Source of the DNA: a virus
IMG/VR virus record: IMGVR_UViG_3300047471_000175
Coordinates: 1-55,629 of that record
Length of the DNA stretch: 55,629 bases
Strand: one strand, 5' to 3'
The notes below the pieces were generated by a model that made no database searches, was not told where the DNA came from, and was given only the letters and a program-made list of their open reading frames with translations. How positions within the stretch are numbered: position 1 is the first letter of the stretch; each line of letters opens with the position of its first letter. Positions 3,726 to 55,629 of the stretch are shown in pieces. The translations under genes and the position numbers were made by a program.

Positions 3726-3756
3726 ACCCGATCGCACAACCCGAGGAGAAGTGACT

Positions 3757-4848
3757 ATGCCTGCCAAGATCGAAGTCCCGAAGTCCGATTTCAAAGTCGA
3801 GCTTGTTCAGGGCAACATGAAGACGGCCATGAGCGAATCCGGCGCGAAGAGCCGCGATTTGCTGATGGTCCCGGTCGACAACATCAAAGTCGTCGCGGGC
3901 TTCAACGTCCGTATCCACGATGACGAATACGAAGCCCACATCGATTGGATCAAGAACAGCATCCTCGCGAACGGCTTCTATCAGCACAAGCCGTTGAGCG
4001 GCTACGCCGGCAAGGAAGGCGAGTCGACCTTCATCTACTGCACTGGCGGCTTTAGCCGTTTGGAGGCGGCCAAGCGTGCCATCGCCGAGGGCGCCCCGAT
4101 CACGGCCCTTCCCGTGGTTTTGAGCCCGGCCGGCACCAGCATGATCGATCTCACCCTCAACATGGCGATCGATAACGACGGCAAGCAGCTCAAGCCCTAT
4201 GAGCGCGGCATCCTGATCAAGCGCGCCCTCGGCTACGGCGCCGAGGAAGCTGACATCGCGAAGAAAATGGGGATTTCCGAACAGTATGTGAAGGATCTCC
4301 TATTTCTCCTTGGCACCCCGAACACCGTTCAGCAAATGGTGATCAAGGGCCAAGTCAGCGCCGGCCATGCCGTCGTGATCGCTCGCAAGCATGGCGCCGA
4401 GGCCACCAAGATCCTTCAGGCGGCGGCAGGGCTGTCCGCTGATGGGCTGAACGGCGCGACGGCGCCCGGAACCAGCGGCAAGGCGACAGCAGCACGCACG
4501 GGCGGCGCTGGCGGCGGGACCAGCATTCCGAAAAAGGTCTATGTCTCGGCGATCGTCTATGCCCTGGCGCTCCCGGATGGCCTTAGCTGGTTGAAACGCT
4601 GGCACGAAGGCGAGGCCGATGCTATCGCCGAGCTGGTTATGACGATGGCGAAGCCCAAGCGTGCGGCAGCTCCGAAGGCCAAGAAAGCGGCCGGCAAGGG
4701 CGCAGGGAAGGGCGCTGGCAAGGGCAAGGCTGGCCGGAAGAGCAATGCGGCCAAGGCGGCTGAAGCGGCGGCAGCGGCCGGTGCAGCGGCGGCAGCAGTG
4801 GCGGCGGTTTCCGGTAACGCCCCGGTCGACGACGATACGCCACTCTAA
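3757..4848 (+). CDS. ParB/Spo0J-family protein with histone-like tail
   Basis: A 363-residue protein. Residues about 36-125 form a ParB N-terminal (CTP-binding) domain; the usual Gly-Glu-Arg-Arg box is replaced by Thr-Gly-Gly-Phe-Ser-Arg (96-101), keeping Gly and Arg. A helix-turn-helix follows (about 160-186: Ala-Asp-Ile-Ala-Lys-Lys-Met-Gly-Ile-Ser). From about residue 297 the protein becomes a Lys/Ala/Gly tail (repeated Gly-Ala-Gly-Lys-Gly) resembling histone H1. ParB proteins bind parS-like sites and slide on DNA. There is no ParA in the window, so this is more likely a DNA-coating, replication or regulatory factor than a complete partition system. The start is ATG 3757 (GAGGAG 8 bases upstream) rather than the in-frame GTG at 3751. 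Confidence 0.85.
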   Translation: MPAKIEVPKSDFKVELVQGNMKTAMSESGAKSRDLLMVPVDNIKVVAGFNVRIHDDEYEAHIDWIKNSILANGFYQHKPLSGYAGKEGESTFIYCTGGFSRLEAAKRAIAEGAPITALPVVLSPAGTSMIDLTLNMAIDNDGKQLKPYERGILIKRALGYGAEEADIAKKMGISEQYVKDLLFLLGTPNTVQQMVIKGQVSAGHAVVIARKHGAEATKILQAAAGLSADGLNGATAPGTSGKATAARTGGAGGGTSIPKKVYVSAIVYALALPDGLSWLKRWHEGEADAIAELVMTMAKPKRAAAPKAKKAAGKGAGKGAGKGKAGRKSNAAKAAEAAAAAGAAAAAVAAVSGNAPVDDDTPL

Positions 4849-9513: not shown

Positions 9514-9876
9514 GTGTCCAAGCTAACTAAGTCAGTCCCGGCAACGGAAGTCGAGCCGTTGTTCAATCAAGTTCGAACGGCGCTCGATTGTTCCGATCGA
9601 GAGATCCTTGAGACGATCGGCTATAGCCGCAGCGCCGGTAATCATTGGGCAAAAGGAACCGAAGTTCCTACGCGCGTCAAATACGCACTCCTCGGGCTTC
9701 TCTCCGAGCTGCGCTTAAAGCCCACCGAAAAAACAGCGCCGCCGCGTTTCGACTTCGGCGAGCTGGCGCAGCTCTTCGCGGCTGTGCTTGCTACCACGCC
9801 GAGCGATCCGCTTCTCGCTAAGATTGCCCGTGAAATGACACGCAAGGGAGCACTAGACAATGCCAACGCAAATTGA
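9514..9876 (+). CDS. Putative HTH-like protein, GTG start
   Basis: A 120-residue protein. Residues about 20-55 (Cys-Ser-Asp-Arg-Glu-Ile-Leu-Glu-Thr-Ile-Gly-Tyr-Ser-Arg-Ser-Ala-Gly-Asn-His-Trp) look like a helix-turn-helix of the Cro/bacteriophage-regulator type, where an addition module is followed by a recognition helix. The C-terminal half is an amphipathic helix pair. The start is GTG 9514 with GAGGAG upstream. The stop overlaps ThyX by 17 bases. A regulator of the early arm is the simplest guess. Confidence 0.6.
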   Translation: MSKLTKSVPATEVEPLFNQVRTALDCSDREILETIGYSRSAGNHWAKGTEVPTRVKYALLGLLSELRLKPTEKTAPPRFDFGELAQLFAAVLATTPSDPLLAKIAREMTRKGALDNANAN

Positions 9877-10690
9877 AATCGAAGTCTTCAACATCGGCCG
9901 AACGATGGTCGATCAATCCGAAGTCGCCCGGTGGATGGAACGGCTTGGCGTTTCCGAGGATGCTTCCACGGATATCCGGAGTGGCGGGATAAGCGATTCC
10001 GCTCTTCTGATCGCCTTGGCCGCAAAACGATGTTATATGTCATTCGAGCCCGGCTTGAACAAAAACGTCAACCGGATTCGCCGTGACATGGTGAAATACT
10101 TCGATAACATCCTGGCAAGCGGTCACGGCTCTGTGCTTGAGCACGCTGTTTACAGTTATGCGATCGAGGGTCTATCGCGTGTTGCCACTGCCGAGTTGAA
10201 TCGGCACCGGGCAGGCTGGGCGATCTCGGAAGGCAGCCTGCGGTTCATCCGCTTCGATCAAAACATCCCGTATTGGCTGCCATTATCACTGCGCCCCGAC
10301 GAAACCGATAATCGGGATCTCGCGCAGCGGAAATACGAAACCCGGATGATCTTCGATATGGTGTTCAAGGATGCCGAACGGTTTTATGGCGCCCTAATGG
10401 ACATCTGGAAAATGGACGAAAGCGACAAGAATTTTGATTATAAGAAAAAGGTCACGTCATGCCTTCGCCGGATCATCCCTCTTGGTGTAGCCACTGGTGG
10501 AGTTTGGACCGGCAACATCCGGGCTCTGCGGCATGTGCTGGCCGTGCGTACCGATCCTTCAGCCGAGGAAGAGATCGCGCATGTCTTCTGGAAGGTTGGC
10601 ACCGATATCATCGGCCGCGAGCGTATGTTGTTTCAGGATTTCAGCCTCGGGCCAAACCTGTCGTTGGTGCCCAAGCATCGGAAGGTCTGA
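9860..10690 (+). CDS. thyX: FAD-dependent thymidylate synthase ThyX
   Basis: A 276-residue ThyX, converting dUMP to dTMP with methylenetetrahydrofolate and reduced FAD. Gly-His-Gly-Ser-Val-Leu-Glu-His (88-95) and the signature region Arg-His-Arg (115-117) followed by Ala-Gly-Trp-Ala-Ile-Ser-Glu-Gly-Ser-Leu-Arg are clear. A Gly-Asn-Ile-Arg-Ala-Leu-Arg-His segment near 214-221 is the C-terminal substrate/FAD element. The signature is unusual: canonical ThyX reads Arg-His-Arg-x7-Ser, here eight residues separate Arg117 and Ser126. The N-terminal 50 residues are an extension. Together with the dCTP deaminase (6325-7110) it supplies thymidylate for phage DNA. Confidence 0.9.
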   Translation: MPTQIEIEVFNIGRTMVDQSEVARWMERLGVSEDASTDIRSGGISDSALLIALAAKRCYMSFEPGLNKNVNRIRRDMVKYFDNILASGHGSVLEHAVYSYAIEGLSRVATAELNRHRAGWAISEGSLRFIRFDQNIPYWLPLSLRPDETDNRDLAQRKYETRMIFDMVFKDAERFYGALMDIWKMDESDKNFDYKKKVTSCLRRIIPLGVATGGVWTGNIRALRHVLAVRTDPSAEEEIAHVFWKVGTDIIGRERMLFQDFSLGPNLSLVPKHRKV

Positions 10691-39400: not shown

Positions 39401-41413
39401 TCAAACCTCACAAAATCCGCCCATGCACGCCAGCTCTTTCGCCGCTTCGGTATAATCCGAATCCTCGCTGAATTCGGACCAATCAATTGTCGTTGGCGTC
39501 TTCGCCACCAGCTCGTCGAATTGAACCTTCGTGCATTGGATATAGGGAGCCTGCCGATAGTTTCCACCGTCAAACGGCAGGAAGGCGATACCGCTGACCA
39601 TATCGAAATTGTTGTAAACCCAGGCACCGACGCCGAGCCATTCACGATCTTTGACCGAGATTGTCACGCTGGGTTTGTGCTCGCAATAATTTTCTTGGTA
39701 GAGCTTCCAGATCGTCAGGTGCTCAAGCGCCGTATAATCCTCCCGGCTGATCGCGCCATCCGGCACCGTTATTGGGAAATACATTACCCAAGCGGAATCG
39801 GGAGAGCTGACATCATCCTCGGCATATACGCCTTTGGTAATCATAAACTGCGCCAGCTTGTCGACCTTGTTCGCCCGATTGGTCCGGATATAAAAATGCT
39901 TGGCGTGCGCGCCATGCAGCCCGGAACGGCAGTCAACCAAATTGGAGTTGTTGCCCTCAGGCTTGACAGTTGTAATAGCGGCGCTCGGATTGATACCAAC
40001 GCGATCGGCCCAATCGGCGTTCGTAGCCACGGATAGGTCGCGCATCTCCGATAGCACGGCCGGCAATTCGACCTTCACGCCATCAACAACAAAGTTGTCG
40101 GATGTGAAACTGCCGTTCCGGATATAGTCGAGCCCGGCCATGAAACGGTTGTCGAAAATCCCGTTCAGGCTCACGCCCAACAACCGCTCCTCTTCGCAGT
40201 TGAACTTCCAATCGGGTTGCAGATATCGGAAGTTCGTCAGCGTTGATTGCAGCGTGCCGAGGATCGTTGATAGACGGATTTTGCGGAGGAGCGTTCGCAA
40301 TCCGTCTTCAGCACGAATGATATTCGTGGTGAGATTGCAAAACTGGCGCGGCCTCAAAATGATTTCGCCGCACGGGTTGAGCCCGTAGTGCTCGCCCCAA
40401 CGGTCGACATCGATGCGCCGAGTGCGCCGGGCTTGATCGATAAGCGCCTGTCTATTGATTTGGCCGCGCTCGCCGGCTTGCGATTTGATCAGGGCAAGCC
40501 ATTCGTCCATGAATTGCGTGGCGCTCGGATAGTCCGTCCAAACTGCCGAGTTGTTGGCGAGCCGGAAGTGTGGCTTGCGGTTCCACCACTCGCCGCTCTT
40601 CGCATCGCGCATCCGCTCATCCGAGGGATTGCTAAGCGATATCTCGGCGCCACGCCTTACGCCGCCGCTGTTGGCAACGTCGCTTGCCTTCGTCATCAAA
40701 TCGTGTTGCTGAAGTGAGGTGAGCCGGCGCTGTCCGTTATCGACAGCCTCTGTGAAGATCGCGACCGAATGATGGAAGAGATCGATCAACGGCTCGGGTC
40801 CGGATGCTCGGCCGCCGAATGTCACCAGCCGCTCCCCTTTCTTCCGCACCTTGGAGGTATCCCAACGTGGAATGAATCCCTGATAAAGCAAATCAAGAAT
40901 TTCGCGAAATGCGAGTGCCCAACCGATTTTGTCATCTTCCACCACGATAACATGATCGATCGGCACAAGGCAGTCGGAGATCACCGGCAGCGTGTTCGTA
41001 TATTGTCTTTCCACGCTGAAGCCCACGCCGCAAGAGCACATTGTCAGATAGAATGCTTCATCGTGCGTCAGCATCCGGTCGACCGGCGCATAGGCGCAGT
41101 TGTATGCCGCCGCATTGTCGCGCTCCAAAGCCGGGCCGGCCGTCATCATCGCCCGCATCGAAGGCATGACGCCGAGAAAAAGGATGCCTTCGAAAATCTC
41201 GATTTGGATATCCTCGGGAATGAGATATCCGAAATTGACGAAGATATGGTTGACCATGAAATCCCAATACCGATAGACGGTTTCGGGCCAGAATTCGCGG
41301 CGCTGAAGATCGTCCCGCCAGCGCGAGTATTTCGTCAAACCGATTTGCTCTTGGTAGAGTGTCGGGAGGCGAACATGCGCGTAGTTCTCAAAACGAATAA
41401 GATTGGCCGACAT
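39401..41413 (-). CDS. Adenosylcobalamin-dependent (class II) ribonucleoside-triphosphate reductase
   Basis: A 670-residue, likely monomeric B12-dependent reductase like the Lactobacillus enzyme (RTPR). Cys106, Asn-Pro-Cys-Gly-Glu (346-350, thiyl-forming Cys348, Glu350) and Cys359 match RTPR Cys119, Cys408, Glu410 and Cys419 with the same 11-residue spacing. The C-terminal Cys663/Cys668 pair matches the RTPR Cys731/Cys736 re-reducing pair. It reduces NTPs to dNTPs, using cobalamin from the host. There is no NrdB-like gene nearby, consistent with class II. AGGAG lies upstream of ATG 41413; it overlaps the helicase gene by 26 bases. Confidence 0.92.
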   Translation of the reverse strand: MSANLIRFENYAHVRLPTLYQEQIGLTKYSRWRDDLQRREFWPETVYRYWDFMVNHIFVNFGYLIPEDIQIEIFEGILFLGVMPSMRAMMTAGPALERDNAAAYNCAYAPVDRMLTHDEAFYLTMCSCGVGFSVERQYTNTLPVISDCLVPIDHVIVVEDDKIGWALAFREILDLLYQGFIPRWDTSKVRKKGERLVTFGGRASGPEPLIDLFHHSVAIFTEAVDNGQRRLTSLQQHDLMTKASDVANSGGVRRGAEISLSNPSDERMRDAKSGEWWNRKPHFRLANNSAVWTDYPSATQFMDEWLALIKSQAGERGQINRQALIDQARRTRRIDVDRWGEHYGLNPCGEIILRPRQFCNLTTNIIRAEDGLRTLLRKIRLSTILGTLQSTLTNFRYLQPDWKFNCEEERLLGVSLNGIFDNRFMAGLDYIRNGSFTSDNFVVDGVKVELPAVLSEMRDLSVATNADWADRVGINPSAAITTVKPEGNNSNLVDCRSGLHGAHAKHFYIRTNRANKVDKLAQFMITKGVYAEDDVSSPDSAWVMYFPITVPDGAISREDYTALEHLTIWKLYQENYCEHKPSVTISVKDREWLGVGAWVYNNFDMVSGIAFLPFDGGNYRQAPYIQCTKVQFDELVAKTPTTIDWSEFSEDSDYTEAAKELACMGGFCEV

Positions 41414-43942: not shown

Positions 43943-44445
43943 AGCGGCGTGTCGAATTTAATCGGCTTGCCATACTTGACGTATAGCGGGTGCCGAGGGC
44001 TGCCATTATTCGTGAGCCCGAGCGCGTAGGGCTGCACGCCAACTTCGTCCAAGAGCCTCATTACCGCCTTGTCTTGCTCCAATAGGCTGCCGCCAGCTCC
44101 CCAAGCGCAAACCACCTTGTTTGCGACGCTCAAGGCTTCGCGGATGTAATGCGAATTGTGGCTGCCAACCGGATCGTCCATGCCGATCAGCTCGGCCGGC
44201 TTCGTCGCCCTGGCGCCGAACAAATTCACCACAACAAGTTTTTCGTATCTCCACATTCGAGCAAAGCCGACGCATTTCCGGATTGTCGGATCATCGGTTT
44301 CGCCGTCAGCGGTCGACGGGTTGAGCATGATGAAAACGCACGGCGATGAAAACACCATGACGCCATTCGTCTCCCATTCCCGCCATAAGAGATATCGGTA
44401 TTTCCCGTTGCCTCCAAGGGTCGCGCCCGCGTCAACGTAATCCAT
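43939..44445 (-). CDS. DUF1643 family protein
   Basis: A 168-residue protein with the family landmarks Arg-Tyr-Leu-Leu-Trp-Arg (17-22), Phe-Ile-Met-Leu-Asn-Pro-Ser-Thr-Ala-Asp (38-47), Asp-Pro-Thr-Ile-Arg-Lys-Cys (52-58) and Asn-Leu-Phe-Gly-Ala-Arg-Ala-Thr-Lys-Pro (74-83). DUF1643 proteins occur in phages and bacteria; their function is not established. It overlaps the methylase gene by 14 bases and is coupled to the small peptide gene downstream. Confidence 0.85.
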   Translation of the reverse strand: MDYVDAGATLGGNGKYRYLLWREWETNGVMVFSSPCVFIMLNPSTADGETDDPTIRKCVGFARMWRYEKLVVVNLFGARATKPAELIGMDDPVGSHNSHYIREALSVANKVVCAWGAGGSLLEQDKAVMRLLDEVGVQPYALGLTNNGSPRHPLYVKYGKPIKFDTPL

Positions 44446-45097
44446 CGATCATCTCCCTAACGGCAGCCGTCAGCTCAAGCAGCTCGGCTTCTCTGTTATC
44501 CGGCGCCGGGTATTCGTCGCCCCAGCCATCCCAGCCGGGCCAGCGGCGCTTCGCGAACAGCTCGCAATACGGGCCACCGACCAATTCCTCAACACGTTTG
44601 TAAAGCTCATCCGGCTTGCGGCTGTGCTCGCGGCGCGGCGCGGCGATTATCTGCCGCACGCCTTTCGACAGCCGGCGCGGCGAGCCTCGGGTGAATAGCA
44701 GACACGACTCCGTTTGCTTCCGGGTCCAGTATCCCATGCTGATACCGAAATCGACCGCAGCATAGCCAGCGCCGTCTTCCAGAATCTCGACTTGCTTTTT
44801 CGTCTTCAGCCATTCGAAGGCGCGGGTTTTGAATTTGAAGCCCCACTTCCGGCCTAGCTCTATACCCACGTCGAGATGAGAATCGACAACCCACATGAAC
44901 AGAGCGCAATCCTTTGCCGCCAGGGAAGCCACAGGGAGCACGGAGAGCCCTTCAAGGGTCATTGTGTCGTAATGATCCTCGGCGCATCTGTGCGGCGTCG
45001 TATGGCTGCCGCTATACGTCAGGAAGCTCCATGGCGGATCGGCCACAATCGCCCCGTAGCCGCCCGGAGAGAGGGCATGGAACACGAAGCGCGTCAT
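44432..45097 (-). CDS. MT-A70-family adenine N6-methyltransferase
   Basis: A 221-residue methylase. Ala-Asp-Pro-Pro-Trp-Ser-Phe (19-25) is the catalytic DPPW motif; Glu-Trp-Leu-Lys-Thr and Gly-Tyr-Trp-Thr-Arg-Lys follow, then His-Ser-Arg-Lys-Pro-Asp-Glu and Glu-Leu-Phe-Ala-Lys-Arg, all typical of MT-A70 phage enzymes. No cognate restriction enzyme is present, so it likely protects phage DNA from host restriction. I chose ATG 45097 (ATGA overlap with the preceding stop) over 45109. Confidence 0.9.
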   Translation of the reverse strand: MTRFVFHALSPGGYGAIVADPPWSFLTYSGSHTTPHRCAEDHYDTMTLEGLSVLPVASLAAKDCALFMWVVDSHLDVGIELGRKWGFKFKTRAFEWLKTKKQVEILEDGAGYAAVDFGISMGYWTRKQTESCLLFTRGSPRRLSKGVRQIIAAPRREHSRKPDELYKRVEELVGGPYCELFAKRRWPGWDGWGDEYPAPDNREAELLELTAAVREMIDGLR

Positions 45098-45483
45098 AAG
45101 GCCATCCAATCCCGAATAGCGGCTGTAAGGGCTGCCCTGGCGGCTGTGTTCTCGATTGCCAGCTCCTCTAAGCTTCGCCGATGCGTAGCGAGCCTGCCGA
45201 CCGTCACGTTGACTGTCGCAAATCGTTTGTCGTTTTCAAGTGCGACCAAGATAGCCTGCGCTTCAGCATCGGTGACGCGCTGAACAATCCAACCGGGCTC
45301 ATTAGCCGGGCGGATTGACATCTGCCATCCATCCTTGATTTCGAACAAAGTGAAACCGCTCATTTCGCCTTCGTATTTTATGGCATCCTTGATCGCGGCC
45401 ACCTTGCCCTCCGTTGGTTCAAGCGAATATGCGGGTCCGCCACCACGCACCCCCAGCACGATCAGAAAATCGGATTTTTTCAT
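45094..45483 (-). CDS. Hypothetical protein, 129 aa
   Basis: A 129-residue alpha/beta protein. The first half is beta-rich (Tyr-Glu-Gly-Glu-Met-Ser-Gly-Phe-Thr-Leu-Phe-Glu-Ile); the second is an Ala/Glu helix pair. It is coupled on both sides by 4-base overlaps, with the cupin gene (45480-45483) and the methylase (45094-45097). No family is recognised. Confidence 0.6.
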   Translation of the reverse strand: MKKSDFLIVLGVRGGGPAYSLEPTEGKVAAIKDAIKYEGEMSGFTLFEIKDGWQMSIRPANEPGWIVQRVTDAEAQAILVALENDKRFATVNVTVGRLATHRRSLEELAIENTAARAALTAAIRDWMAL

Positions 45484-46055
45484 TCGTCGCAGCCTTTACC
45501 GCGCTGGCCGTAGCCAATTGCGGTGGGGTTGGTGCCGTTGACATATTTAGACCAATGCCGCCACCGGGCTCGGCTGATGGTCATTGAACCTGTCTCAGCC
45601 CAACTAACAAAGCCAGGACACCAGAAGCCCCACTGACGCACGTCCGGAAATTTGATGAAGAGTGACCAGCTCGGGATCGGCTTGCCGTTCTCGTCTCGGT
45701 TCAAGATGACACGATGCGGCCAGCTCGGAAGCCGGATGATTATGCTATGGTTCGGCCGGTCAACGATATCGGTAGGCGGCAGCGAACGCCCTTCCTCGGG
45801 TTGCCATAGGAACCGCTCTTCCTTGTACGCTCCCTGAAGAATGAACGAGACGTTCATCGCCCGATGATCGTGCAAATGCTCTTCGTCATCGTGCAAAAAA
45901 TTGTGGAGGTAGATGTTAAAAAATCGGTTGCGCGGCAGAACAAACCAGCGCCAGTACGTCGGGTTATTGAGCGGCCCGACTGGAATCTTTTCATATTTCG
46001 GATTGTCCCGAATGGCGCAGATGAATTGTTCGATCTTGGTTTCAAGCCATGTCAT
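45480..46055 (-). CDS. Cupin-like phage protein
   Basis: A 191-residue protein with a beta-barrel pattern. His-Leu-His-Asp-His-Arg (about 60-65) and Pro-His-Arg-Val-Ile-Leu later fit a cupin metal site with several His residues. Ile-Leu-Gln-Gly-Ala-Tyr follows at the usual Gly. I recognise this as a conserved small phage family without a known role. It overlaps the upstream gene by 14 bases. Confidence 0.75.
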   Translation of the reverse strand: MTWLETKIEQFICAIRDNPKYEKIPVGPLNNPTYWRWFVLPRNRFFNIYLHNFLHDDEEHLHDHRAMNVSFILQGAYKEERFLWQPEEGRSLPPTDIVDRPNHSIIIRLPSWPHRVILNRDENGKPIPSWSLFIKFPDVRQWGFWCPGFVSWAETGSMTISRARWRHWSKYVNGTNPTAIGYGQRGKGCDE

Positions 46056-52739: not shown

Positions 52740-55280
52740 ATGATGCGTTATTTGGCCGACAAAGGCCATCGGATTCTCCGGAATGGCTACAATGTCATCC
52801 CTATTTTACCCGGAGACAAGCGCCCCAGCATCGATGGATGGCGCTTAACGCCTACCACAAAAACTATTTTGGACGGGTGGGTATCGAACGGCCGAGCTTC
52901 ACATGGGGTTGGTATAACCACTGGTGATATCTCGCTTTTCGATTTAGACATCTTGCACCGTGCCATGAACCGACACATGGTGGATTACTGCATCACGCAC
53001 ATAGGATTCGCGCCCGAGCGCGTAGGCAATCCGCCGCGATGCGGGCTCATGTACCGTTCGCCGAAGCCATTCAAGAAGCACAAATCCAAGGCGTTCATAG
53101 ACCCTGATGGTAACAAAGCTGAGATCGAAATCCTCGGAATAGGACAGCAATTTGTTGCCTATCACGAACATCCGGATACGAAAAAACCTTATGTTTGGAT
53201 GAGCGACAAGCAAAATCCAGAAGCAACGCTCGCCAGCGATTTAACCGAAGTCACCGAGCAAGACGCCCTTGACGCCATCGCCCATTTCGAGAAGACAGCT
53301 TTAGCTTGGGGTTGGAAGCTGCTAGGCGGCAGCAGCAGCAATGCGGCCAAGAAAACTACAGCAGCTCCGGCGCCGGCTGCTCCCGTCCCGGATTGGGCAT
53401 CCGAGATGACGGAGGAGGAGGAAGATCCTTTTGATATTAGCCTCGGCCGGCTCGGGATGTCCGTTGAAGAGCTTCGCAATCTAGTCAGGCTCATCCCCAA
53501 CAACAGCGAAGTGAGCTACGAGGGCCAAGGGCTTTCCTGGCTCAACATCATGGGCGCCATCCATCACGAAACGGAAGGGTCTGAGGAAGGCCGCGCCATC
53601 GCTCGCGAATACAGCGACCGCTTTGAACGGGTTGAAGAAGAGGGCAAGTTTGATAAAACGTGGAATAGCCTCGGCAAAAACAACGAGCGCCCTGTTACCG
53701 CTCGCGTACTCGTCAAACTCGCCAAGGAATACCGCCAAGCTACGATAGCCGATCAACTGGCGGAAGCTAAAACCAAACAAGATTTGGAAGCGGTAGCTGA
53801 AACGATATCGAAGATCGCGAAGCTCACCAGCCTAGAGCGCGAGGAATACGCCGCAGCCATCAAGGAAGCCGGCACGCGCATCCTCGGGCACAATATGTCT
53901 ATCAAGATCGCCCGCGAGATGATCCGGCCGCCTCGCCCGGACGATCTAAAGGATTATCAGCTCAACGAAGATGGCGTTGCCCTCGCATTCGCCGAGAAAT
54001 ACAAAGATACCCTGCGTTTCAATGCGACAACCGCGACGTGGCATAAGTGGGATGGGATTTACTGGAAGCCCGAAAAAACTCGTTTGGCATTTCATTGGGC
54101 TCGCGAGACGTGCCGTGAACTGCGAGCCGACAACCCGATGGCCGAGGCCCTGGCGAAAGCAGGCGCGGCCGAAGCCGTCGAGAAATACTGCCGAGCCGAT
54201 CCCCGGCTTGTCGTCGAGTCGACCGTATTTGATACCGATCCGTTGCTCCTCGGCACTCCGGAGGGAACGATAGACCTGCGAACCGGAGAGCTGCGGGAAG
54301 CTAGACAGGAAGATTATATAACGAAGCTCACAAACATAGGCCCTGGCTTCCAAGGTAACTGCCCTCGATGGATGAAGTTTCTCAATGAAGTCACGAAAGG
54401 CGATGCAACTCTCATCCGTTATCTCCAAATGCAATGCGGCTATTATCTTACAGGAAGCACAAGGGAACAGAGTTTGTTATTTATCCATGGTCCCGGAGGC
54501 AACGGAAAAGGCGTATTCATCCACACACTTGAATATATTTTTGGCGACTATTCTACGACTGCCTCGATGGATACCTTCGCAGATAATCACGGTTTCCATA
54601 GGCACCCGGCCGATATAGCTGCCCTCAACGGCTTCAGACTTGTTGTTACCTCCGAGGTAGCCGAGGGTCAGGCATGGGATGAGGTGCGGATCAAGGCTTT
54701 GACAGGCGGCGATCGGATATCCGCCCGGCTTATGCGAGAGAACTTCAGCAACTTCGTGCCGAACTTCAAGATAATGGTGATCGGCAACAACGAGCCCTCG
54801 CTGAAGACGGTCGACGACGCCATGAAGCGGCGTCTTCAGATGGCGCTCTTCGATTTCAAACCTCCGGTCAAAAATCTTGATCTCGAATCCGAGCTGAAGG
54901 CTGAGGGTGACGAGATCCTTTCATGGATGGTTGAAGGTGCGCTCGACTATCACAAGAACGGCATGATAATTCCGGAAACTGTGCGCGAGGAAACCGATCG
55001 GTATTTTTCGGAGCAAGATGCGCTCGGCGAATGGCTCGATGGTTATACCGAAAAAGGCGATAATTACGTCACAGCAACCACGGATTTGAAGGCCAGCTAT
55101 GACCTGATCACCGGCTCCGAGGGCTTCAGATCGAAGCAAAGCGCGATGGCGTTCTCAGCCGGGCTCGCAAAGCGCGGGTATGAACGAGTCTCAAGCGTCT
55201 ACGATTCAAACGGGCATAAATGCAGAGGTTTCAAGGGCTTACGGTTGAGAGAGGCGTTTGATGAAGATCAACCACTATGA
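52740..55280 (+). CDS. Bifunctional primase-polymerase / SF3 helicase
   Basis: An 846-residue replication protein. Residues about 1-200 form a PrimPol-like domain: Leu-Phe-Asp-Leu-Asp-Ile-Leu (about 63-69) carries the catalytic acids and Ile-Glu-Ile-Leu-Gly-Ile follows. An Ala/Pro linker lies near 205-215. A D5-type N-terminal region precedes the SF3 helicase: Phe-Ile-His-Gly-Pro-Gly-Gly-Asn-Gly-Lys-Gly (about 580-590, Walker A), then Val-Val-Thr-Ser-Glu-Val (about 636-641, B) and Val-Ile-Gly-Asn-Asn-Glu-Pro (motif C). Such P4-like enzymes recognise and open an origin; the repeats directly downstream are the obvious candidate. Tandem ATG codons at 52740/52743 are both possible. Confidence 0.92.
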   Translation: MMRYLADKGHRILRNGYNVIPILPGDKRPSIDGWRLTPTTKTILDGWVSNGRASHGVGITTGDISLFDLDILHRAMNRHMVDYCITHIGFAPERVGNPPRCGLMYRSPKPFKKHKSKAFIDPDGNKAEIEILGIGQQFVAYHEHPDTKKPYVWMSDKQNPEATLASDLTEVTEQDALDAIAHFEKTALAWGWKLLGGSSSNAAKKTTAAPAPAAPVPDWASEMTEEEEDPFDISLGRLGMSVEELRNLVRLIPNNSEVSYEGQGLSWLNIMGAIHHETEGSEEGRAIAREYSDRFERVEEEGKFDKTWNSLGKNNERPVTARVLVKLAKEYRQATIADQLAEAKTKQDLEAVAETISKIAKLTSLEREEYAAAIKEAGTRILGHNMSIKIAREMIRPPRPDDLKDYQLNEDGVALAFAEKYKDTLRFNATTATWHKWDGIYWKPEKTRLAFHWARETCRELRADNPMAEALAKAGAAEAVEKYCRADPRLVVESTVFDTDPLLLGTPEGTIDLRTGELREARQEDYITKLTNIGPGFQGNCPRWMKFLNEVTKGDATLIRYLQMQCGYYLTGSTREQSLLFIHGPGGNGKGVFIHTLEYIFGDYSTTASMDTFADNHGFHRHPADIAALNGFRLVVTSEVAEGQAWDEVRIKALTGGDRISARLMRENFSNFVPNFKIMVIGNNEPSLKTVDDAMKRRLQMALFDFKPPVKNLDLESELKAEGDEILSWMVEGALDYHKNGMIIPETVREETDRYFSEQDALGEWLDGYTEKGDNYVTATTDLKASYDLITGSEGFRSKQSAMAFSAGLAKRGYERVSSVYDSNGHKCRGFKGLRLREAFDEDQPL

Positions 55281-55286
55281 GGGAAG

Positions 55287-55417
55287 TTGGGACACCAGGA
55301 CACCTCGGGACACCTCCCATAGTTCCCCCCTATAGGGAAGAGTATTTTTTCTGAAAAAAGCTTTTCGCACGCGCGAGATATATCAGAGAGGTGTCCCAAG
55401 GTGTCCTGGTGTCCCAA
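55287..55417. repeat. 30-bp inverted repeat built of GGACACC heptamers
   Basis: The left arm (55287-55316) and right arm (55388-55417) are complementary in 29 of 30 positions. Each arm carries three GGACACC heptamers. The 71-base centre is AT-rich, with a perfect CCCTATAGGG palindrome (55328-55337) and a T6/A6 stretch. It begins seven bases after the primase-helicase stop. It could be the helicase-binding site of a replication origin, an operator or a strong transcript hairpin; the region 55281-55629 has no convincing gene. Confidence 0.88.
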
Positions 55418-55479
55418 AGGGGATTTGTTAGGGATTTTCTCTATCAATCGGAAATGCCATTATGGCACGACATTATGAC

Positions 55480-55525
55480 TGCAAACCGGCGCAACCGCGA
55501 TGCAAACCGCTGCAAACCGTTGCAC
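55480..55525 (+). repeat. Helically phased iterons TGCAAACCG
   Basis: TGCAAACCG occurs at 55480-55488, 55501-55509 and 55511-55519. A degenerate copy (CGCAACCG, 55490-55497) and a partial one (TGCACGG, 55521-55527) fill the gaps, giving a period of 10-11 bases, about one helical turn. All copies would present to one face of the DNA, typical of replication iterons or cooperative operators. They follow the GGACACC inverted repeat. Confidence 0.7.
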
Positions 55526-55629
55526 GGAAAATCGCCAAACGGCTTTTCGGAGTTTCCAAGTAAAACTATGCCCTCGAAATACCCTATGAAGTAATTTGAA
55601 ATGCGTTTTGTCCGGGCTCTGCGCCCTCC

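Follow-up and report, generated by a model that had tools for sequence, protein, structure and literature searches.

The window, that is, the whole stretch of DNA analysed, is a virus record of 55,629 bases. Sequence comparison shows its DNA polymerase, a family A enzyme encoded by the phage, to be about 45% identical to those of Chi/Nazgul-type phages. The order of features at the right end is the same as in BcepNazgul, AH2 and YSD1: the polymerase and a DUF2800 exonuclease on the minus strand, then the primase in plus orientation, followed by non-coding DNA of a few hundred bases and by cos. The window also carries genes for a ribonucleotide reductase, a DNA methyltransferase, a cysteine dioxygenase-like protein (phrog_4786) and a ThyX-type thymidylate synthase; the metabolic and modification genes are located at 39401-41413, 44432-45109, 45480-46055 and 9860-10690.

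The cohesive end of phage chi has been determined as GGTGCGCAGAGC (PMC4342425), and the records of YSD1 and Jing313 terminate in the same sequence. The window terminus carries a putative 12-nt cohesive end of this GGTGCGCAGAGC/AGGGCGCAGAGC type, as found in Casjensviridae-type phages. The final bases of the window read GGAGGGCGCAGAGCCC on the minus strand, and the cos-like AGGGCGCAGAGC stops two bases short of the contig end. Because of this cos-like sequence, the right end of the contig appears to be a natural genome terminus. The preliminary description had placed the two repeat arrays in the non-coding end of a circularisable genome. Their place is as described, but a search of the window for terminal repeats able to circularise the contig found none.

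The primase-helicase contains Prim-Pol (PF09250), PriCT_2, D5_N and DUF5906 helicase domains according to Pfam and belongs to phrog_1156. Its sole sequence relative among PDB structures is SaPI5 Rep (7OLA/7OM0). An AF2 model (53925-55277) that covers the helicase half together with the C-terminus has a mean pLDDT of 91 and matches D5-type AEP-SF3 hexamers and dodecamers in Foldseek. The C-terminus has a predicted helix-strand arrangement consistent with a winged helix, as judged from the secondary structure of the whole model. A single-protein search of viral contigs with the window primase found no relative. The gene looks mosaic: its N-terminal Prim-Pol part resembles Casjensviridae primases, whereas the helicase half is closer to the BPP-1/AcaML1 type. 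The closest polymerase relative, L297, keeps a Casjensviridae-type helicase.

Six nucleotides past the stop codon of this Prim-Pol/D5_N/DUF5906 gene begins an inverted array that extends over 55287-55417 (Table 1). Its two arms, each 30 nt long and 71 nt apart, are complementary at 29 of 30 positions (97%). The heptamer GGACACC is non-palindromic and occurs seven times in the window, six of the copies being inside the arms. With at most one mismatch, the longest inverted repeat is 30 nt; when the 349-nt end was dinucleotide-shuffled 100 times, none was longer than 14 nt. Coordinates, counts and shuffles all confirm the arms, with three heptamers each, that had been described earlier. As single-stranded DNA, 55281-55425 folds with -40.5 kcal/mol (z = -8.1), and an Rfam scan gave no match at the gathering score. 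The locus has two of the features that mark the origins of self-loading primase-helicases of the P4/SaPI/pRN1 type, namely tandem iterons facing each other across a spacer (here three mirrored GGACACC per arm and 71 nt) and a position directly 3' of a D5/SF3-type (primase-)helicase gene.

Table 1. Features at the right end of the window
Feature	Position	Strand	Description
Primase-helicase gene, presumed initiator	52740-55280	+	846 aa; analysed by Pfam, PHROG, PDB search, AF2 and Foldseek
Left iteron arm	55287-55316	+	GGACACC at 55290, 55298 and 55308; steps 8 and 10
Origin spacer, presumed melting and priming region	55317-55387		71 nt; compared with homologous spacers
CCCTATAGGG	55328-55337		Within spacer and within a terminator-like hairpin (55323-55339) followed by a T-rich tail
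Alternating purine-pyrimidine tract CGCACGCGCG	55366-55375		10 nt
Right iteron arm	55388-55417	-	GGACACC at 55390, 55400 and 55408; steps 10 and 8, mirroring the left arm
Second array	55480-55524	+	Four GCAA(A)CCG units, 55481-55519, phased 10-11-10
cos-like 12-mer AGGGCGCAGAGC	55616-55627	-	Same 12 bases as the cos overhang end annotated in BcepNazgul

Facing iterons beside homologous genes

In BPP-1, Acinetobacter phage 4316, AcaML1 and AH2, inspection by eye shows facing repeats of quite different sequence 3' of the homologous gene. The layout was surveyed with fixed criteria in 139 non-redundant 3' regions of homologous loci, gathered from viral contigs as well as annotated phages. The loci were the best 80 of each scan, and non-redundancy was judged by shared 12-mers, not by a tree. 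Two tandem 8-mers with a period of 8-12 had to be followed, after a gap of 35-110, by their reverse-complement pair, with at most two mismatches. This layout was present in 46 of the 139 listed viral regions and in none of 695 shuffles. With exact 7-mers the count was 40 of 139, against 2 of 2780 shuffles and 2 of 1554 other stretches of those loci; with up to four mismatches it rose to 83 of 139 (60%), against 4 of 278 shuffles. An independent set of loci from bacterial genomes gave 15 of 35 with at most two mismatches, compared with none of 175 shuffles and none of 312 other stretches. Up to four mismatches gave 19 of 35, at a higher background (2/175 shuffles and 13/312 other stretches). 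Loci with the layout usually have a period of 9 bp and a gap of 50-75 nt.

The layout is conserved beside homologous genes, a third feature of the class, and supports the earlier proposal of a candidate origin beside a P4-type primase-helicase. The AEP-SF3 dodecamers among the structural relatives count in favour of the same reading. Counting against it, the stricter criteria detect the layout in less than half of the homologues.

Each phage has its own iteron sequence, the conserved feature being the presence of facing iterons directly 3' of the gene. L297, the DNA polymerase of which is 54% identical to that of the window, shows the layout too, built from an iteron of its own, CCTGTCC. Iteron similarity increases with protein similarity in one orientation only. 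Covariation of the iterons with the C-terminal domain was not separable from that with the helicase core (correlation between core and C-terminus 0.93, partial correlation 0.11, permutation p 0.014). In the preliminary description the origin was to be given up if neither array was conserved next to homologous primase-helicase genes and the skew did not change here. That outcome was not obtained: it is the architecture that is conserved, not the heptamer. At least 120 viral stretches contain three GGACACC; among them, three listed loci have this primase family, in no case adjoining the array.

The heptamer was considered as an origin marker and rejected, the viral-contig matches (at least 120) being mostly unrelated. 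A near-identical GGACACC/GGTGTCC array, with steps of about 12, 11, 11, 55 and 9, is common to many viral contigs (L004-L015, L022, L024, L026, L030-L033 and others), where it lies away from any Prim-Pol/D5-family primase. In L031 this array (9534-9638) is situated just upstream of a minus-strand gene matching the small terminase (phrog_51, E 4e-8).

The two arrays of the window had originally been assigned the other way round, with the P4-type helicase binding the TGCAAACCG iterons. Since the facing-iteron layout found directly 3' of homologous genes is that of the GGACACC array, this assignment has to be reversed. The GGACACC repeat had been suggested as a possible operator or site of a second protein, with the ParB-like protein encoded at 3751-4848 of the window as a candidate, and facing repeats can indeed bind dimeric regulators. 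However, in many phages the layout goes together with the 3' end of the primase-helicase gene, and there is no match to a sigma-70-type promoter within 55200-55629. The parS sites bound by ParB protein are palindromic, and the array of non-palindromic heptamers is presumably unlike them. An operator or partition site for another protein is highly improbable.

The GGACACC inverted array is very likely an initiator-binding replication origin of the adjoining Prim-Pol/D5-type helicase in this Chi/Nazgul-like phage. GC skew, suggested earlier as a check, provides no independent support. The cumulative curve reaches its minimum near 53-54 kb, together with the switch in gene strand near 52.4 kb, and this confounding makes the skew uninformative; third-position GC skew has no clear turn in the window.

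Known origins and the stem-loop alternative

Three known systems, Sfi21, pRN1 and P4, were examined with the layout detector used in the survey. The layout was detected in the 302-bp 'origin of replication' of Sfi21 and in the origin region of pRN1, and in imperfect form in the crr of P4. The Sfi21 origin, as annotated in the record, lies directly 3' of the primase gene and has facing TTAGTTAC iterons with a period of 8 and a gap of 71, although both host and iteron differ from those of the window. The crr of P4, which is needed in cis, adjoins the 3' end of the alpha gene, and in it two facing pairs of type 1 iterons surround a short spacer. P4 differs from the window in having a TOPRIM-type primase, the iteron GGTGAACA, imperfect arms and its main annotated ori elsewhere.

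The archaeal plasmid pRN1 encodes a Prim-Pol/SF3 protein, and the element 3' of its orf904 has facing TGTCCA iterons (period 9, gap 64), two per arm. It shares the core GGACAC with the window, oriented the other way with respect to the gene. Berkner and colleagues found this element to be required and movable, and considered it not iteron-like (PMC4234260). They described it as a stem-loop without iterons, saw specific binding by neither gel shift nor footprinting, and pointed to a comparable stem-loop on the 3' side of the BIP-1 gene (PMC4234260). The negative binding result for pRN1 and the location of the annotated P4 ori count against the origin reading. The BPP-1/BIP-1 locus (L123) encodes a homologous Prim-Pol/PriCT_2/D5 protein and has two facing TTGCCTCG copies per arm (period 9, gap 70) 3' of bbp29. 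The window differs in sequence and in having three iterons per arm with steps of 8 and 10; moreover, the stop codon and the BPP-1/BIP-1 element are separated by 466 nt, in which another ORF is annotated. SaPI-type origins and the SCCmec Cch2 site, compared from their description in the literature, likewise combine a D5-type helicase gene with iterons downstream, which are recognised by the C-terminal domain of the SaPI and SCCmec helicases (PMC7581432). The Cch2 site has just three iterons of 5 nt, unlike the window.

As proposed for pRN1 and BIP-1, the arms could alternatively have been selected to pair as a hairpin or cruciform on which the initiator assembles. The hairpin potential of 55281-55425 is strong, and for one mutation in the pRN1 stem tolerance depended on restored symmetry (PMC4234260). 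In addition, differences between inner and outer iterons tend to be mirrored in the opposite arm: in the viral loci 22 sets are better mirrored than tandem, 4 are worse and 34 are ties. The corresponding counts of 3, 1 and 12 in the bacterial-genome set give a weak signal, the set being too small for confirmation. The mirrored differences favour two-fold symmetry, which is equally expected from a stem and from two rings facing each other. A stem does not need arms that are tandem internally, yet the self-match of the arms at shifts of 7-12 is 0.71, compared with 0.47 in shuffled arms. In 9 of 46 cases a continuous stem is broken because the left and right arms have unequal periods. The internal repetition and the unequal periods thus favour iterons, and selection for pairing is unlikely, although the iteron and stem readings are not mutually exclusive. 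The recognition of tandem iterons in the 'stem-loop' arms of the pRN1 type, based on sequence comparison, appears to be new as far as a limited literature search shows.

The non-coding right end most likely holds the site at which replication starts, in an origin built like those of P4, Sfi21 and pRN1. The array, its position, the domains and predicted fold of the adjoining protein and the conservation of the layout with homologous genes are established. From these we infer binding, melting, priming and origin activity, as follows. The C-terminal winged-helix-like domain of the primase-helicase would bind the three tandem GGACACC iterons of each arm. The mirror-image arrangement of the arms would position two helicase rings face to face on either side of the 71-nt spacer, which would then melt, aided by the A/T stretch, TATAGGG and the CGCACGCGCG tract. 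The rings would load, and the N-terminal Prim-Pol domain would make the first primers for extension by the family A DNA polymerase.

With this assignment, an unannotated phage end would become a defined, testable origin. P4 iterons, SaPI-type downstream origins and the pRN1 stem-loop would be linked into one architecture, which can be found by sequence search beside very many uncharacterised phage primase-helicase genes.

The spacer between the arms

The earlier description of an AT-rich centre applies to a stretch of 26 nt (55340-55365) with an A+T content of 77%, but not to the spacer overall, in which A+T is 58%. Homologous spacers also have a mean A+T of 58%, compared with 46% for 600-nt regions.

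An arrangement of the arms merely as a transcription terminator, or as an mRNA-end element of the primase gene, would agree with the terminator-like hairpin and its T-rich tail inside the spacer. One such match is nevertheless near chance (0.6 expected). Arms of 30 nt with a 71-nt spacer do not suit a terminator stem, for which tandem iterons would be superfluous, and the terminator of pRN1 is separate and dispensable (PMC4234260). There is hardly any likelihood that the arms are only a terminator.

Features of the spacers were first noticed in the viral set and tested afterwards on the bacterial-genome set. An alternating purine-pyrimidine tract of at least 10 nt, as in the window, occurs in 0.18% of shuffles of the window spacer and in 1.2% of the 71-nt segments taken from the window. 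Tracts reaching 12 nt or more are present in 20 of 44 viral spacers among the listed loci, compared with 1.3 expected from shuffles and with 1% of other stretches; the longest tract averages 12.3 against 6.0. The independent bacterial-genome set has such tracts in 18 of 19 spacers, where 1.8 are expected. The tract often carries GTG/CAC priming triplets, and CAC/GTG triplets in the spacers are enriched only mildly (35/46, 27.6 expected). The Sfi21 spacer, unlike that of the window, is A/T-rich and has no GC alternating tract.

These observations allow the tentative proposal that origins of Prim-Pol/D5-type helicases share an alternating tract, built in between the facing iterons, as an opening or priming element that replaces a plain A/T-rich one. 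Under negative supercoiling such a tract could convert to Z-DNA or open at its junctions. If functional, it would represent a novel type of element for opening or priming; its occurrence in many origin spacers, seen by sequence analysis, seems to be new within the limited literature searched.

TATAGG/CCTATA is present in 15 of 44 viral spacers (1.3 expected). In the bacterial-genome set TATAGG was found in 1 of 19 spacers (0.31 expected). Given that there was no clear replication, TATAGG was rejected as a general origin core.

The second array and the cos-like sequence

The motif TGCAAACCG has exactly three copies in the window, at 55480, 55501 and 55511. When GCAACCG is allowed there are four units, at 55481, 55491, 55502 and 55512, with steps of 10, 11 and 10, in agreement with the 10-11-base period reported in the preliminary description. 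Clusters of at least three exact 7-mers within 45 nt were found in 2 of 5000 shuffles, yet 9 of 526 further 210-nt segments of the window have such a cluster as well. The origin model does not need this array.

The GCAAACCG repeats are about 100 bp from the cos-like sequence at 55616-55627, a proximity that suggests packaging. The second array might be a packaging element, for example a set of small-terminase sites on the cos side, and its phasing with the helix at about 100 nt from the cos-like sequence is consistent with such a role. However, no array of the GCAAACCG/TGCAAACCG type was seen ahead of the cos-like sequence in the Casjensviridae-type ends compared, so that the element is without a counterpart in these relatives. 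Furthermore, next to the iterons of the P4 ori there are three 10-bp 'type 2' repeats in tandem, which makes an auxiliary role at the origin possible for the second array. A role in packaging is a realistic prospect that falls somewhat short of an even chance, and the choice between a packaging element and auxiliary sites like the type 2 repeats is uncertain.

Matches to the IHF consensus WATCAANNNNTTR near cos were spotted by eye in several Chi-type phages (L129, L131, L133, L272 and L278). They carry no score against chance and were kept out of the evidence. Several Casjensviridae-type ends have a CTATG motif, often GGGGCTATGG, about 45-65 nt ahead of the cos-like sequence, and an approximate version of it, AAAACTATGCC, is present at 55565-55629 of the window.
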